The notes under the pieces were generated by a model, which saw nothing but the letters and a program-made list of their open reading frames with translations, was not told the DNA's origin and made no database searches. From NCBI RefSeq assembly GCF_005406125.1, contig NZ_BIXZ01000001.1, positions 434,001-498,000 on the forward strand: a DNA stretch of 64,000 nt, read 5' to 3'. Source of the DNA: Haloarcula mannanilytica. GTDB lineage: Archaea > Halobacteriota > Halobacteria > Halobacteriales > Haloarculaceae. A program made the translations under genes and the position numbers. Positions 3,085-17,850 of the stretch are shown here, piece after piece. Numbering within the stretch: position 1 is the stretch's first letter; each line of letters begins with the position of its first letter.

Positions 3085-3392
3085 CTATCTTTCCGTGGGT
3101 TTGGAGCGCATACACTTCACTTTACCGTTGGCGGCTTCTAGGTAGTAAATTTTCTATGTAATCATGTAGAATACCAGAATCCACTATTGGAATTTGTGCC
3201 CACACAACACATTATGTTTCGCTGAACAGTCTGCTGGACCACTGAACCCAGAAAGACAGATTCGGCAGATACAGGCCATATTCCCTGATTACTACGGCCC
3301 ATGTAGTCATCTCCTGACGAATCTGACCACCGAGAATTTGTTACTACTAACCTCAAGTCGACAGTAACTATTATGTATTTTGATAGTTGATT
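3085..3392. other. Divergent intergenic region, glpA and transducer
   Basis: About 350 bases separate the divergent glpA (minus) and transducer (plus) genes. The region is richer in A and T than its surroundings. AT-rich boxes that could be TATA elements are near 3143-3153 (minus strand) and 3365-3380 (plus strand). No conserved reading frame was recognised in 3085-3392. It probably holds the control elements for both glycerol operons, but no regulator site could be named. Confidence 0.5.
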
Positions 3393-3437
3393 ATGGCCGA
3401 AGCACGTTGGCGGTTCGGCCAACGGGAGCGACAATGA
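3393..3437 (+). promoter_or_regulatory. Possible 14-codon leader ORF overlapping the transducer start
   Basis: ATG at 3393 opens a frame encoding MAEARWRFGQRERQ and ends at TGA 3435-3437. This stop overlaps the downstream ATG (3434-3436) in the ATGA arrangement common for translational coupling. The product is basic, unlike haloarchaeal proteins in general, so it would act as a leader rather than as a functional protein. An AT-rich box sits about 25-30 bases upstream, so a leaderless transcript could begin at this ATG. Translation is unproven. Confidence 0.35.
3395..3424 (+). promoter_or_regulatory. Two mutually exclusive hairpins in the leader
   Basis: GGCCGAA (3395-3401) can pair with TTCGGCC (3414-3420), and CGTTGGC (3405-3411) can pair with GCCAACG (3418-3424). 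The second arms share bases 3418-3420 and the pairs interlock, so both cannot form as simple stems at once. The structure lies inside the short leader ORF and just ahead of the GGGAG and ATG of the transducer gene. Ribosome movement over the leader could choose between them. This is an inference from base pairing alone. Confidence 0.4.
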
Positions 3438-5974
3438 GTAAATGGAACCCATTTGATTCGGAAGACGACCGGTCTGACGTGGGACAGACCGACGGCGGTC
3501 GAAACGAGTCGGAGCAGACACCGCCGACGGGAGACGCCCAGTCGGAAGAACCGGAAATCCAGGCGAATCGGACAGCGCGAGACGCCGAACAGGCGGAGCT
3601 AGAAGCCCGCTGCCAGCAACTGGCGGCAGAACTCGAACAGGAGCGGGCGGACCGCCGCGCGCTCGAAACCGCCGTCGACGAACTCACCGAAGTCGTCAGC
3701 GCGAACGCCAGCGGCGATCTCACAGCGAAACCGGAGCAACCGCCGACTGAGGCCGCCGAACCGCTGTACGACGCATACGACGGATTGCTCCGAGAGTGGA
3801 CCGACACCGTCGACCGGATGGCGTCGTTCAGCGAGCAAGTGACCGCCGCGACCGAACAGGTCGACACACGCCTCGATTCAGTCAAATCCGCCAGCCGGGC
3901 AGTCAGTGGCGCTGTGGGTGAGATTTCGACGGGCTCGGACGAGCAGCGCGACCAGATACAGTCCATTTCCGACGAGATGCGGGACCTTTCGGCAACCATT
4001 GAAGAGATAGCGAGTGCCGCCGACGAGGTCGCGGATACCTCACGGGAAGCCAACGCCCGGGGCGCGTCCGCACAGGAGTCAGCGGCGGCGGCGATGACGA
4101 CTCTCGAAGGGCTGACCGACAGCGCCGAGGCGACCGTCGACAAGGTCGAGCAATTGAACGACGTGCTTGCCGACATCGAGGAGATTGCGGGGTTCATCAC
4201 CGATGTCGCGGACCAGACGAACATGCTGGCGCTGAACGCCAACATCGAAGCCGCTCGGGCGGGCGAGTCCGGCGACGGGTTCGCTGTCGTCGCTGAGGAG
4301 GTCAAAGCCCTCGCAAACGAGACGAAGGAGGCCACTGACGAAATCGAGGCCTCCATCCAGGACGTTCACGACCAGGCCGACGCGACGGTCGAGGAGATGT
4401 ACGACACCAGAGAGAGCGTCGCGGAAACCCGCTCGTCGGTCGCCAGTGCGCTCGATGAGCTGGATGCCGTCGTCTCGATGGTCGAGGACGTGGACGCAAG
4501 CGTTCAGGAAATCGACGAGGCGACGGATACGCAGGCCGAATCCACACAAGAGGTCGTGTCGATGGTTGACGACGTTAAGGAGATAAGCGCTCGGACAGCC
4601 GAGGAAGCGGCCGTCGCCGCTGATGCCGCAGCGGACCAGACGACGGAACTCGCGGAGGTGTCGACGCGGGTCTCGACGCTGACCGAGCGGGCCGAATCGC
4701 TCGATGCGTCCCTGGACGCCTTCGAACTCGTGACCGGCGCGTCGGCGGCTGGCAAGAACGAAACCGTCGTCGAATTCTGGCACGCGATGGGCGGCGAGAA
4801 GGCACTGCTGCTGGAAGAACTCGTCCGTGAGTTCGAGGCACAGACTGACGGTATCAGCCTCGCCTTGCGGTCAAAAGGGAGCTACCGCGGGACCCTCGAC
4901 GCGACGCTAAAGGCGGCCGAAAACGGCGACCCACCCGCCATCGCGCAGATATTCGAGATCGGGACCACGCGTGCGCGTGACAGTGGTCAGTTTAGACCCG
5001 TCGAGGAGCTTCTCCCGGGAGCGCACATCGACTCGCTGCTCGACCCGGTGACCAACTACTACCGCTTCGACGGGACGCTTCACTCGCTCCCGTTCAACGC
5101 GTCGAACCCGGTATTGGCCTACAACCGCGATGCGTTCCGGCAGGCGGGGCTTGACCCCGACTCGCCCCCGGAAACGCTTGCTTCGGTCCGGAGCGTAGCC
5201 GAACGGCTCGTAGACAGTGGTGTCGTAGATGTCGGAATCACGTTCGCGAACTACTCGTGGTTCGTCGAGCAGTGGTTCGCCGAGGCCGACCAACCCCTCG
5301 TGGACCAGCACAACGGACGGGCTGGGTCGCCCACGGAGAGCTACCTTGACGGTCCGCTTGCCCGAGACGTGTTCGAGTGGTGGCAGGGCCTCGAAGCGGA
5401 TGGGCTGTACCATGACCCGGGCATCGAGGCCAGAGGCGCGGCTCGGACCCATTTCTTCGAGGGAGACTCCGCGATGTTGATCGACTCTACCTCCTCTCTG
5501 AACAGCATCGAAAGCGGTGCCGATTTCGACGTAGGAACCGGTCGATTTCCGGTTCTCGACGACCGGACCGGCGTCCTCGTCGGCGGCGCGTCTCTCTGGG
5601 TGGGTGATGCGGTTTCCGAGGTCGTCCACGACGCCGTCGCCGAGTTCCTCACCTGGCTGACCGAACCGGGCCAACAGCGCCGATGGCACCGGGAAACCGG
5701 GTATTTCCCGGTCCACGAGGAGGCGATTCCGCAACTCCGGTCGGCGAACTGGTTCGAACAGAATCCGCAGTACCGGACGGCATTCGACCAACTTATGCAG
5801 ACGCGCGACACCACGGCGACACGTGGCGCACAGATTGGGCCGTTTGATACGGTTCGGACGGTTATCGAGGACGCCATCGACAGTATGGACGGCGTGGATT
5901 CGGTCCCGTCTGCGCTTGACCGACTCGATACGCAGGTCGGAAAACAGCTCGAACGGTACGAATCCGGGCAGTAA
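3434..5974 (+). CDS. Soluble chemotaxis transducer fused to a UgpB-like glycerol-3-phosphate-binding domain
   Basis: The 846-residue protein starts MSKWNPFDSE and has no signal peptide, twin arginine or membrane span, so it should be cytoplasmic. Residues 1-90 are acidic and coiled; a HAMP-like stretch (ANASGDLT) follows. Residues about 110-430 are a methyl-accepting signalling domain with the tip DQTNMLALNANIEAARAGE. From about 440 to the end it is a solute-binding protein closely like bacterial UgpB: FWHAMGGEKALLLEE, PPAIAQIFEIGTT, WFVEQWFAEA, VGGASLWV and WHRETGYFPV all have UgpB counterparts. Domain order is reversed relative to normal transducers (sensor at the C-terminus). It lies between glpABC and glpK. 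It may sense internal glycerol-3-phosphate; the ligand is inferred. A start at 3380 is possible but less likely. Confidence 0.9.
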   Translation: MSKWNPFDSEDDRSDVGQTDGGRNESEQTPPTGDAQSEEPEIQANRTARDAEQAELEARCQQLAAELEQERADRRALETAVDELTEVVSANASGDLTAKPEQPPTEAAEPLYDAYDGLLREWTDTVDRMASFSEQVTAATEQVDTRLDSVKSASRAVSGAVGEISTGSDEQRDQIQSISDEMRDLSATIEEIASAADEVADTSREANARGASAQESAAAAMTTLEGLTDSAEATVDKVEQLNDVLADIEEIAGFITDVADQTNMLALNANIEAARAGESGDGFAVVAEEVKALANETKEATDEIEASIQDVHDQADATVEEMYDTRESVAETRSSVASALDELDAVVSMVEDVDASVQEIDEATDTQAESTQEVVSMVDDVKEISARTAEEAAVAADAAADQTTELAEVSTRVSTLTERAESLDASLDAFELVTGASAAGKNETVVEFWHAMGGEKALLLEELVREFEAQTDGISLALRSKGSYRGTLDATLKAAENGDPPAIAQIFEIGTTRARDSGQFRPVEELLPGAHIDSLLDPVTNYYRFDGTLHSLPFNASNPVLAYNRDAFRQAGLDPDSPPETLASVRSVAERLVDSGVVDVGITFANYSWFVEQWFAEADQPLVDQHNGRAGSPTESYLDGPLARDVFEWWQGLEADGLYHDPGIEARGAARTHFFEGDSAMLIDSTSSLNSIESGADFDVGTGRFPVLDDRTGVLVGGASLWVGDAVSEVVHDAVAEFLTWLTEPGQQRRWHRETGYFPVHEEAIPQLRSANWFEQNPQYRTAFDQLMQTRDTTATRGAQIGPFDTVRTVIEDAIDSMDGVDSVPSALDRLDTQVGKQLERYESGQ

Positions 5975-14080: not shown

Positions 14081-15439
14081 ATGGATTCAGGGAGAAATGG
14101 TGGTGGAAGGTCCGTCTTTAGGCGGAACCTACTACGTTCAATCGGCGCGTCCGGGCTCGCCGGGCTTGCGGGTTGTGGTGGCAGTGAGGGTGTAACAGAT
14201 GGAGGCGGGACACCGACTCCCACTCCGGTCGGCAACTATCCGGTTTCCGGGGACTCGGTGACGTTCGGTTTCAACGTCGCGTCCTCCGGCACGTATTCGG
14301 CGGCCGGGCAGCAGGAACTGCGAGGGTTCGAACTCGCAGTCAAACACATCAACAACGGCGGTGGATGGGTAACGAACGACAGTTACGAGTCGCCCCTGAG
14401 CGGTGACGGACTCCTCGGAAAAGACGTTGAGTACGCTGTCGAGGACACCGGCGGCAGTTCTGACACGGCCCGGACCAACGCACAGCGTCTTGTTGACAGC
14501 GAGGAGGCTATCATGCTCGCCGGCGGTACGTCCAGCGGTGCGGGAGTGGCCAATCAGGAGGTCGCCGCCCAGAATCAGGTCGTGTACATGGCGACGATGG
14601 CCCACGCGAACTCGCTGACGGGTGCCGAGTGTAACCGGTATGCCTTCCGCGAGATGTTCAACAGCCATATGACGGCCGAGGCGCTGGCTCCGGTTCTCCG
14701 TGAGGAGTACGGCGAGAACGTCAACTACGCCAAGTTCTTCGAAAAGAACGACTGGGGCAAGACGATGCGGGACGATATGGATGCGGCCCTCGGAGAGATT
14801 GGCTGGTCACCCGTCTGGGAACACAGTTCCCAGGTCGGGACGAGCGATTTCTCGCAGTACGCTTCTGAGATCAAATCAGTCGATTTCGATGTAATCGTCC
14901 TCAGTCTTCGTGGCCTTGACGCAGCGAACGCTCTCAGGGCATTCCGTGAAGCGTTCCCGGATTCGGATATCGTCCTCCCGTTGGCCTCGTTGGAAGTCGC
15001 CCAGACCGCGGGCGATGCGATAGACGGCGTACTGGGCACTGTCGCCTGGAGCCCGGCTATCACCTCACCGCTATCCGATACCTTCCGGGAGGCGTTCCGG
15101 GGAGAGTACAGCGGGACGGCGGCGTCTATCCCGTCGGGATCGGCGCACATCGCGTACACGCAAACGCTTCAGTACGCCAGTGCGGTCGAGCGAGCGGGGA
15201 CGTTCAATCCGATTGAGGTTATCGCGGAACTCGAAGACCACGGGTACGACGCCGGCCTTGGATCGCAGACGCTCCGGGCCTGTGACCATCAGGCGATGCG
15301 TCGGGTCCCGGTTGTCAGAGGGAAGCCGGAGGCAGAGCAGTCCTACGGGTCGTACTACGGCCTGATCGGAGAGCCAGCAAATGTGCAGTACGGGTGCGAT
15401 AGCGGTCCAGCGGCCGAGTGCTCGCTTGGAGGGAGCTAA
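14081..15439 (+). CDS. Tat-exported lipoprotein, branched-chain amino acid/amide-type binding protein (BasB-like)
   Basis: The 452-residue protein has a twin-arginine lipoprotein signal, FRRNLLRSIGASGLAGLAGC, with the lipobox Cys near residue 32, followed by a Thr/Pro-rich linker. The rest is a type-I periplasmic-binding fold of the LivK kind (VTFGFNVASSGTYSAAGQQ; GGTSSGAGVANQEVAAQNQV). No permease or ATPase genes adjoin it; a transducer follows three bases after its stop. This matches the BasB/BasT and CosB/CosT pairs of Halobacterium, where a lipoprotein presents the ligand to a transducer. Ligand unknown; amino acid or amide is the family expectation. Confidence 0.88.
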   Translation: MDSGRNGGGRSVFRRNLLRSIGASGLAGLAGCGGSEGVTDGGGTPTPTPVGNYPVSGDSVTFGFNVASSGTYSAAGQQELRGFELAVKHINNGGGWVTNDSYESPLSGDGLLGKDVEYAVEDTGGSSDTARTNAQRLVDSEEAIMLAGGTSSGAGVANQEVAAQNQVVYMATMAHANSLTGAECNRYAFREMFNSHMTAEALAPVLREEYGENVNYAKFFEKNDWGKTMRDDMDAALGEIGWSPVWEHSSQVGTSDFSQYASEIKSVDFDVIVLSLRGLDAANALRAFREAFPDSDIVLPLASLEVAQTAGDAIDGVLGTVAWSPAITSPLSDTFREAFRGEYSGTAASIPSGSAHIAYTQTLQYASAVERAGTFNPIEVIAELEDHGYDAGLGSQTLRACDHQAMRRVPVVRGKPEAEQSYGSYYGLIGEPANVQYGCDSGPAAECSLGGS

Positions 15440-15441
15440 CT

Positions 15442-17367
15442 ATGAGTTCAGACGACACAGAGATAACAGACAGTTCAGCGACCGACTCAAACGCGTCCGG
15501 TGGAATTCTGGCCACGGTGGTCCCGGATTTCATCCGGCGAAACTTCGCACTGAAGTTCGGTATCGTCCTCTTTATCATGGCACTGTCGGTGGGGCTTGTC
15601 GGTCTCGCCGCGACAGAGCAAGTCAGGGACTACACGGAACAGCAAGTCCTGAGCGACTACGAAAACGCCGCGGCACAGGAAGCCGATATCCTATCACAGT
15701 GGGTCGATCGAAACCGGTTATCGACCCAGTTCGTCTCTTCGGACGATATCTGGGCCAGTAGCAATACCGACGATATCGAGATCGAACTCAACAATCGGAA
15801 GGCCGCCTTATCTGCGGACGCTGCCGACATCCACCTGGTCGAACGCGGTGCCACCCAGACGGAAGTCGTCGCCAGCACGTCTAACTCGCAGGTGTTGACC
15901 AACTCACCGCTGGAATCGACAAACAGGGCCTGGTTTACCGATGTCAGCTTCGAAGCAGCGAGTGATGTCGTCATCTCCGACGTGTATCAGACGAACTCCG
16001 GCCCAGTCGTGGGCTTCGTCAGCCCCGTCGACGCCACACAGAACCGATACATCCTCATCGAGTACTCCCTCGATGAGATCGCGAACTCGCTTCAAGGAAA
16101 CAACAGGGCCGAAGGCGGGTTCACGCAGGTCGTCAACAGTTCAGCAGTCGTCATGGTCGACGAACCCAGAGACGGGAGCCGCGGCCTCGGCGAGAACATG
16201 CTGCAGTCATACAGTTCGAACACCCGCGCCACCGCACCGATCGACGCGGCAGACGACCTTCGCTCGTCGGACCAGCCATCCGGTGTCAGCCCGAACATGC
16301 CCGCAGGCGACGTGCTCAACGAACGCTACACCGTGGGCTATGCGCCGATTCAAGGGACTGACTGGGTCGTTCTCGTACACGCACCCAACTCTGCCGTGTT
16401 CGGGTTCGTCCAGAACGTCCAGCAGTACGGGCTCATCGGCACGGCATTGATGGTTTTGCTCATCGCGGGTGTCGGAGCCATACTCGGGTACAACACGGCA
16501 ACATCGATTGACCGGCTGACCAGAAAAACGGACCAGATGCGACAGGGGAACCTCGATGTGGATATCGCTACCGGTCGCATCGACAACATCGGCCGCCTGT
16601 ACAGCGGGTTCGCTGACATGCGCGACGCGCTCAAAGAGCAGATCAACGAGGCCGAACGCGCCCAGAAGGAGGCAGAGGTCTCCCGGGCCGAGGCCCTCGA
16701 AGTCAACAAGTACCTCCAGAAGAAGGCCGAAGAGTTCTCTAACGTGATGGAGGAGACGGCTGCCGGAAATCTCACCGAGCGGATGGCGACTGACGGCGAG
16801 AACGAGTCGATGGACCGCATCGCCAACGAATTCAACGGCATGGTCGACGAACTCGAAAAGACCGTCGGTCAGCTCAACAGTTTCGCCGACGAGGTCGCGG
16901 AATCCGGTGATGTCGTTCTGTCGAGTGCGGAATCTGTCCGTGACGCGTCCGAACAGGTCGCCGAATCCACACAGAAGATCTCCGACGACGCCTACGACCA
17001 GAAGGACCGCCTCGCGTCCATCTCAGAGGAACTTGACACCCTCGTCGACACGCTTGAAGAGCTGGAAGCGAACAATCCGGACATCGACCTGGGCGACTCG
17101 CTCGAACGGTTCCGGACGGTGGCGACCACACTGCAGTCGGCCGCTGAAACGAGCGACCAGATGATGGCCGAAACCCAGACCGTTGCTGGGGCGGCCGAAG
17201 AGCAGGCCGCGGAACTCAACGAAGTGTCCTCGCGTGCCGAACAGCTCAAACGCTACGCGAAGCCACTCGGTGACATCCTGAATCGCTTCGAGACCGAAGC
17301 CGAACACGAGTTCGTCTTCTCCGGCGGCCCATCCCAGAGTCTCGGCGAAGAGGAAGAAGAAGAGTAG
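15442..17367 (+). CDS. Membrane chemotaxis transducer lacking the signalling hairpin tip (BasT-like)
   Basis: The 641-residue protein starts MSSDDTEITD at 15442. A membrane span lies near residues 36-56, an outside Cache-like domain at about 57-320 and a second span near 335-357. Then come HAMP (RQGNLDVDIATGRIDN), a linker and a second HAMP (TAAGNLTERMATDG). The signalling region starts normally (VAESTQKISDDAYDQKDRL) and ends with a usual Htr tail (RFETEAEHEFVFSGG), but the DQTNMLALNANIEAARAGE tip that contacts CheA and CheW is absent. The two arms are joined by a short stretch (ANNPDIDLGDSLERF). The frame is open throughout, so this is not a simple frameshift. It partners the preceding binding protein. 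Confidence 0.88.
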   Translation: MSSDDTEITDSSATDSNASGGILATVVPDFIRRNFALKFGIVLFIMALSVGLVGLAATEQVRDYTEQQVLSDYENAAAQEADILSQWVDRNRLSTQFVSSDDIWASSNTDDIEIELNNRKAALSADAADIHLVERGATQTEVVASTSNSQVLTNSPLESTNRAWFTDVSFEAASDVVISDVYQTNSGPVVGFVSPVDATQNRYILIEYSLDEIANSLQGNNRAEGGFTQVVNSSAVVMVDEPRDGSRGLGENMLQSYSSNTRATAPIDAADDLRSSDQPSGVSPNMPAGDVLNERYTVGYAPIQGTDWVVLVHAPNSAVFGFVQNVQQYGLIGTALMVLLIAGVGAILGYNTATSIDRLTRKTDQMRQGNLDVDIATGRIDNIGRLYSGFADMRDALKEQINEAERAQKEAEVSRAEALEVNKYLQKKAEEFSNVMEETAAGNLTERMATDGENESMDRIANEFNGMVDELEKTVGQLNSFADEVAESGDVVLSSAESVRDASEQVAESTQKISDDAYDQKDRLASISEELDTLVDTLEELEANNPDIDLGDSLERFRTVATTLQSAAETSDQMMAETQTVAGAAEEQAAELNEVSSRAEQLKRYAKPLGDILNRFETEAEHEFVFSGGPSQSLGEEEEEE

Positions 17368-17421: not shown

Positions 17422-17850
17422 ATGAGCGACGACGCAGGCGATATCTCACAGGCGGACCTCGCCGAGTACTGTCGAACCCAGGCCGCGATTCTTGCGGGCC
17501 ATCTGGAACAGCGCAGCTCGGAGCTTTCCGATCTGCTCGAAGCAATAGAACAGGACACTGCCCACGCTCGTGCGGCGTTGACCAGCGGCGACAGCGAATC
17601 TCTTGCTGAGAATCCGGAAGCAGCTGTTGCCGACATCGAGGCCAAACAAGAGCGGGCACAGGACAAGCAAGCGGAGATCGACGAGTACCGAACGCTCACC
17701 GAGGGGTACACGGACCTCGCCGAACAACTCGCCGACGGCACCGGTGACCTCGAAACAGTGCTGGAGTTCGAGATGGACACTGACGCCCCGTCCTATTTCG
17801 ACGCCGAGACGACGATCCTGGGGGTAGCGACCGGCAAGGATACCGACTGA
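17422..17850 (+). CDS. Small acidic helical protein downstream of the transducer
   Basis: The 142-residue protein (MSDDAGDISQADLAEYC) is acidic and mostly helical, with long heptad-like segments between residues 20 and 110 and no signal or membrane segment. It begins 54 bases after the transducer stop in the same direction, so it may be co-transcribed. No family was recognised. It could be an adaptor or methylation-related partner of the tipless transducer, but that is speculation from position only. Confidence 0.65.
   Translation: MSDDAGDISQADLAEYCRTQAAILAGHLEQRSSELSDLLEAIEQDTAHARAALTSGDSESLAENPEAAVADIEAKQERAQDKQAEIDEYRTLTEGYTDLAEQLADGTGDLETVLEFEMDTDAPSYFDAETTILGVATGKDTD

Follow-up and report, generated by a model that had tools for sequence, protein, structure and literature searches.

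The window analysed here is a stretch of 64,000 nucleotides of Haloarcula mannanilytica DNA. Positions 15442-17367 of its plus strand hold an uninterrupted frame of 641 amino acids, from ATG to stop. The product is a membrane receptor that contains HAMP but no MCPsignal domain and has intact homologues, which together with it are called tipless below. The preliminary description of this DNA had reported the open frame as well as a sensor, membrane spans and HAMP units, and all of these are present. The first transmembrane segment (TM1, about residues 35-57; 15544-15612, +) has a hydropathy maximum of 2.5 and is followed by an extracellular Cache-like sensor (15613-16425, +). The sensor was assigned from matches at the family level: 13 of 36 tipless family members match dCache_1 in Pfam (best E 1.3e-10), and a search with the family profile hit 7w0w, an MCP Cache structure (E 6e-5). 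TM2 (about residues 330-349; 16429-16488, +; hydropathy 2.4) leads into HAMP1 (residues 350-399; 16489-16638, +; Pfam HAMP E 6e-11). A second HAMP-like unit (residues about 436-478; 16747-16875, +) was recognised from the pattern GxLTxRM...MDxIAxEFNxM in alignment with full-length receptors, and Pfam sees two HAMP stretches in the protein. These units are related to those of haloarchaeal transducers; the family profile matches the NpHtrII transducer (2f95) with an E value of 7e-27.

The remainder of the protein is predicted to form a short helical hairpin. An AlphaFold model of the module contains two helices, residues 457-544 and 551-623, with pLDDT values of 82-91 around the turn. On this model the N arm covers residues 479-544 (16876-17073, +) and the C arm residues 551-616 (17092-17289, +), so that the hairpin has twice about 66 helical residues. 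They are joined by a turn of six residues (545-550; 17074-17091, +), which replaces the MCP tip and is the least conserved area. The C arm carries the most conserved stretch of the family, a belt with the sequence AGAAEEQAAELNEV (residues 582-595; 17185-17226, +). The protein ends in a family-specific tail, ETEAEHEFVFSGGPSQ (residues 617-632; 17290-17337, +), identified by motif counts and a tail profile and proposed to be a docking motif. A model of the full protein had a mean pLDDT of only 44, with six near-identical sequences; this model and the PDB fold search were excluded from the evidence.

Two genes on the same strand flank the receptor. The upstream gene (14081-15439, +) ends 2 nt before the receptor gene and encodes a substrate-binding lipoprotein of 452 amino acids (Pfam Peripla_BP_6, E 1.8e-58) with a twin-arginine-like leader and a lipobox. 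In Haloarcula and genera close to it, relatives of this lipoprotein are encoded immediately 5' of the orthologous receptor gene, and the lipoprotein is the probable ligand donor for the receptor. The downstream gene (17422-17850, +) starts after 54 nt and encodes a small acidic helical protein of 142 amino acids. The N-terminal part of a 779-amino-acid full-length MCP in the same genome (L074:617-2956) is related to the lipoprotein (23% identity, E 2e-9). An 864-amino-acid MCP without a predicted TM segment, encoded at about 3380-5974 (+) of the window (L076:1881-4475), has an SBP_bac_8 domain (E 5e-32) fused behind its signalling domain.

Chemoreceptors are defined by their kinase-contact tip, and to our knowledge the known length (heptad) classes of these proteins all keep it. 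No Pfam match to MCPsignal was found in the 15442-17367 product. Detection of this domain works in the same genome because 15 other proteins match it in full. Among the tipless family members 3 of 36 gave weak MCPsignal matches, the best with an E value of 0.006. A motif search for the CheA/CheW tip was negative in the 15442-17367 product and in all 41 non-redundant tipless relatives; the full-length receptors in the same alignment do have the motif, L112 included, where it occurs in a variant spelling missed by the regular expression. The arms measure 71 and 67 residues here versus 143 and, on the C side, about 158 in the full-length receptors. The hairpin tip and its adjoining heptads are thus missing, as the preliminary description had stated, and judged from the sequence the shortened hairpin appears to lack the known CheA/CheW contact. 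That description had also postulated a symmetric loss around the tip. The remaining hairpin is indeed near-symmetric; however, the N side has lost about 72 residues and the C side about 91, in a coiled-coil alignment that may slip by heptads, and strict symmetry of the loss is not borne out. The 15442-17367 product is chemoreceptor-derived but lacks the defining MCP domain and the adaptation features described below, and we would not classify it as an MCP.

The short form is widespread and intact. With a profile of the module (cut-off E ≤ 1e-60) it was found in 69 of 146 genomes of the GTDB family of Haloarcula, in 10 of 22 genera and in one to four copies, all of them intact. Members score 282-402 bits, and the 15442-17367 product scores 382.5 bits over the whole module. 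No tipless form was seen outside this family in a search of 293 genomes of the order with the same profile: scores of 280 bits or more occur only inside the family, and the best proteins elsewhere in the order reach at most 187 bits with a partial match, mostly in frames of over 800 amino acids. No tipless member was recognised among the 25 matches listed from plasmid records. In two relatives (L036, L052) the long N-terminal extension is probably an artefact of the start codon chosen in the mechanical ORF call. Beside another tipless receptor gene lies a dCTP deaminase gene with an inserted intein of the LAGLIDADG type (L040:8187-10208).

These data bear on the question of whether the receptor is a decaying gene or an artefact, a reading prompted by the absence of a domain that all other chemoreceptors have. 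The preliminary description had named an assembly error and full-length alleles in close relatives as the observations that would speak against its claim. At least 12 further Haloarcula-group genomes, five named Haloarcula species included, carry the same form at 92-93% identity, which excludes chance or an assembly error, and close and distant relatives are all short. Frames are intact in dozens of genomes, the tail has a mean column identity of 76% across the family, and dN/dS within the Haloarcula group is 0.06-0.19, although dS is near saturation in distant pairs; these ratios indicate purifying selection. We therefore consider decay or artefact extremely improbable. Dozens of intact relatives share both the short form and a new conserved surface, which argues for a receptor class that has been rewired and not for a broken gene.

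Next we consider where this conservation lies. In full-length receptors it is highest at the tip (0.90). In the tipless proteins the distal turn reaches only 0.46-0.57, whereas the belt AGAAEEQAAELNEV reaches 0.91-0.94 and the tail 0.78. The conservation pattern is inverted relative to chemoreceptors. Residues E577, Q588, E591 and L592 are invariant in 33 sequences. The belt corresponds to a former methylation-like site with a broken consensus and, by symmetry about residue 549, would face residues 503-516, which are also conserved (about 0.8). The methylation consensus as such has disappeared: 39 of 41 tipless modules have no site, while 14 of 14 full-length receptors have one to four. The only exceptions, with one methylation-like consensus match each, are the two soluble H-NOX-linked modules L055 and L056.

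The preliminary description had called the C-terminal tail conserved. Conserved it is, but it is not the ordinary MCP tail: the sequence ETEAEHEFVFSGGP, with the pattern HEF[VY]F..GP, is specific to the family and occurs in 37 of 41 tipless proteins and in none of 14 full-length receptors. A profile of the last 43 residues found the complete tail only in tipless proteins; the 15442-17367 product scores 101 bits against it. In full-length receptors from other haloarchaeal families (L102-L106, L109-L111, L116 and L117) an acidic linker precedes a terminal aromatic motif (VFTF, MFSF or EFEF), and these ends recall tails at which adaptation enzymes dock. Among the nearest full-length relatives outside the family, an acidic linker followed by a terminal aromatic FxF is frequent, and the tipless tail may therefore be derived from an older docking tail; we mention this as a lead.

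The phylogenetic relationship of the tipless proteins was analysed separately for the module and the sensor. A tree of the region from HAMP to the N arm unites the tipless proteins without exception in a single clade (support 100/99.9), which is nested among full-length receptors; the HAMP and hairpin region shares ancestry with the MCP superfamily. For the sensor region, whose tree has long branches, monophyly of the tipless proteins is rejected (log-likelihood difference 317, p-AU 4e-72); the L048 sensor, for instance, falls among full-length receptors. Since the modules form one clade and the sensors do not, the tip was lost once and the module then moved between sensors. This exchange speaks for the module itself as the functional output. 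A tandem pair of tipless receptor genes (L037:5970-10051) has nearly identical modules and diverged sensors.

On balance, and by a small margin over even chances, we think that these proteins are a receptor class, derived from chemoreceptors and belonging to one haloarchaeal family, which lost the tip once and signals by another route to a putative cytoplasmic partner. Somewhat more tentatively, at a little under even confidence, this route may be a chemotaxis-independent haloarchaeal pathway in which a tipless module on different sensors (binding protein/Cache or H-NOX) acts through the belt and the HEFxF tail on a putative common partner. At the present locus the lipoprotein would bind a solute and load the Cache-like sensor, and the signal would pass through TM2 and the two HAMP units to a short four-helix bundle of the dimer. 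A change in this bundle could make the belt in the middle of the hairpin and the C-terminal tail more or less accessible, and both would bind a putative partner other than CheA, CheW and CheR. The output would probably be nutrient-linked physiology, such as uptake or carbon metabolism, and not archaellum switching.

The neighbouring genes are relevant to what this partner could be. A binding-protein gene (Peripla_BP_6 or SBP_bac_1) lies directly upstream in 13 of 41 tipless loci, and in 3 of 41 (L041, L042 and L065) sugar-type ABC transporter genes, one for a MalK-type ATPase and one for a solute-binding protein, lie directly 3' of the tipless gene. Both arrangements are consistent with direct control of transport: binding protein and receptor would sense as a pair and regulate an ABC transporter or the genes for it, and the transporter would be the true partner. 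However, most loci, that at 15442-17367 included, have no permease or ATPase gene nearby. A role restricted to transporters also does not fit the two of 41 loci (L055:4963-6719 and L056:5409-6798) where a soluble tipless module, with one HAMP and no TM segment, adjoins a haem-NO-binding (H-NOX) protein. Hence we regard transport control as unlikely. The receptor gene at 15442-17367, like its orthologs in Haloarcula and several other genera, has among its neighbours genes for a sugar kinase of the pfkB family (KDG-kinase type) and for a pyruvate-kinase-like protein, the latter named from its sequence.

The small protein encoded at 17422-17850 was the partner suggested in the preliminary description. 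It is on the same strand, probably in one operon with the receptor, and is kept beside it in most Haloarcula and in two other loci. As a general mechanism this route finds little agreement with the wider distribution: most tipless genes have no such neighbour, and relatives of the small protein occur at unlinked loci in many genomes without a tipless receptor. It was rejected as a general partner, and signalling through it seems very unlikely to us. Together with L087-L101 the protein belongs to a wider haloarchaeal family with the patterns YCxTQA...L.G and ..DAPAYF, encoded at unlinked loci.

The most serious competitor is a role inside chemotaxis, in which the tipless protein tunes the output of the array, either as a companion of full-length receptors or by competing with them for binding proteins that both use; the preliminary description had spoken of a decoy or modulator. 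Tipless genes occur in 10 of 17 CheA-positive genera and in none of the 5 others (hypergeometric p 0.03), a restriction that would also fit a role of this kind. The same holds for the ancestry and the HAMP units common to full-length receptors, and the tail could be a retained dock for adaptation enzymes, given the FxF ends of the closest full-length relatives in other families. Against this, the trimer and CheA/CheW contact tip is gone and the hairpin has less than half the length, so that from known array geometry it should not reach the array layer. The adaptation consensus is lost, and the conserved belt and tail suggest another contact. Furthermore, the genome G060 (89% complete, 60 contigs) gave no match to CheA, CheW, CheR, CheD, MCPsignal or archaellin but keeps an intact tipless receptor with a dN/dS of about 0.19. 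Its sister G061 has matches to all six, and the chemotaxis-free state of G060, a single draft genome, may have arisen by recent loss. The genome G108 was considered as another chemotaxis-free case and rejected, since CheR and CheD are both present on one of its contigs; the absence of CheA and CheW there is probably due to assembly fragmentation. The molecular features, including the movement of the module between sensors, favour independence from chemotaxis, while the distribution fits a chemotaxis-linked role too. The decoy or modulator proposal is weakened by these results, and we judge such an accessory role to be rather unlikely.

A rewired receptor class can be compared with several known systems. 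The transducers BasT and CosT of Halobacterium salinarum, paired with BasB and CosB, are also two-TM proteins that work with a binding protein; they act through CheA and CheW (PMC3579733). The likeness rests on the architecture and the adjacent binding-protein gene. Unlike BasT and CosT, the tipless receptor has neither the tip nor the methylation consensus and has a new conserved belt and tail. With the MCP signalling domain (PF00015) the module shares its place inside the superfamily in the module tree and an antiparallel helical hairpin after HAMP, but it fails the defining domain. Af1503 of Archaeoglobus fulgidus, also an archaeal membrane receptor, reportedly contains HAMP and lacks a recognised output domain, and its HAMP reference structures (such as 2l7h and 4gn0) are matched by the tipless family profile. 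The tipless family differs from it in having two HAMP units, a conserved hairpin, the belt, the tail and gene partners; the protein does not end after HAMP without an output module, as an orphan-HAMP receptor of the Af1503 type would, since the conserved hairpin and tail follow HAMP2. Bacterial H-NOX proteins have MCPs, kinases and cyclases as partner modules. The two haloarchaeal loci resemble these systems in placing a soluble module beside the haem-NO-binding protein, but this module is a tipless hairpin instead of a kinase, a cyclase or a full MCP.

No description of the tipless receptor family was found in the open-access literature searched, and the main text of a census of archaeal chemoreceptors (PMC9680633) makes no mention of the hairpin, of truncation or of Haloarcula. 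Counting chemoreceptors by the MCPsignal domain overlooks this family. With its two conserved surfaces the family offers a handle for finding the partner by pull-down, and as a conserved and repeatedly re-plugged class the tipless receptors would be a concrete case of a chemosensory part that has moved to another pathway.
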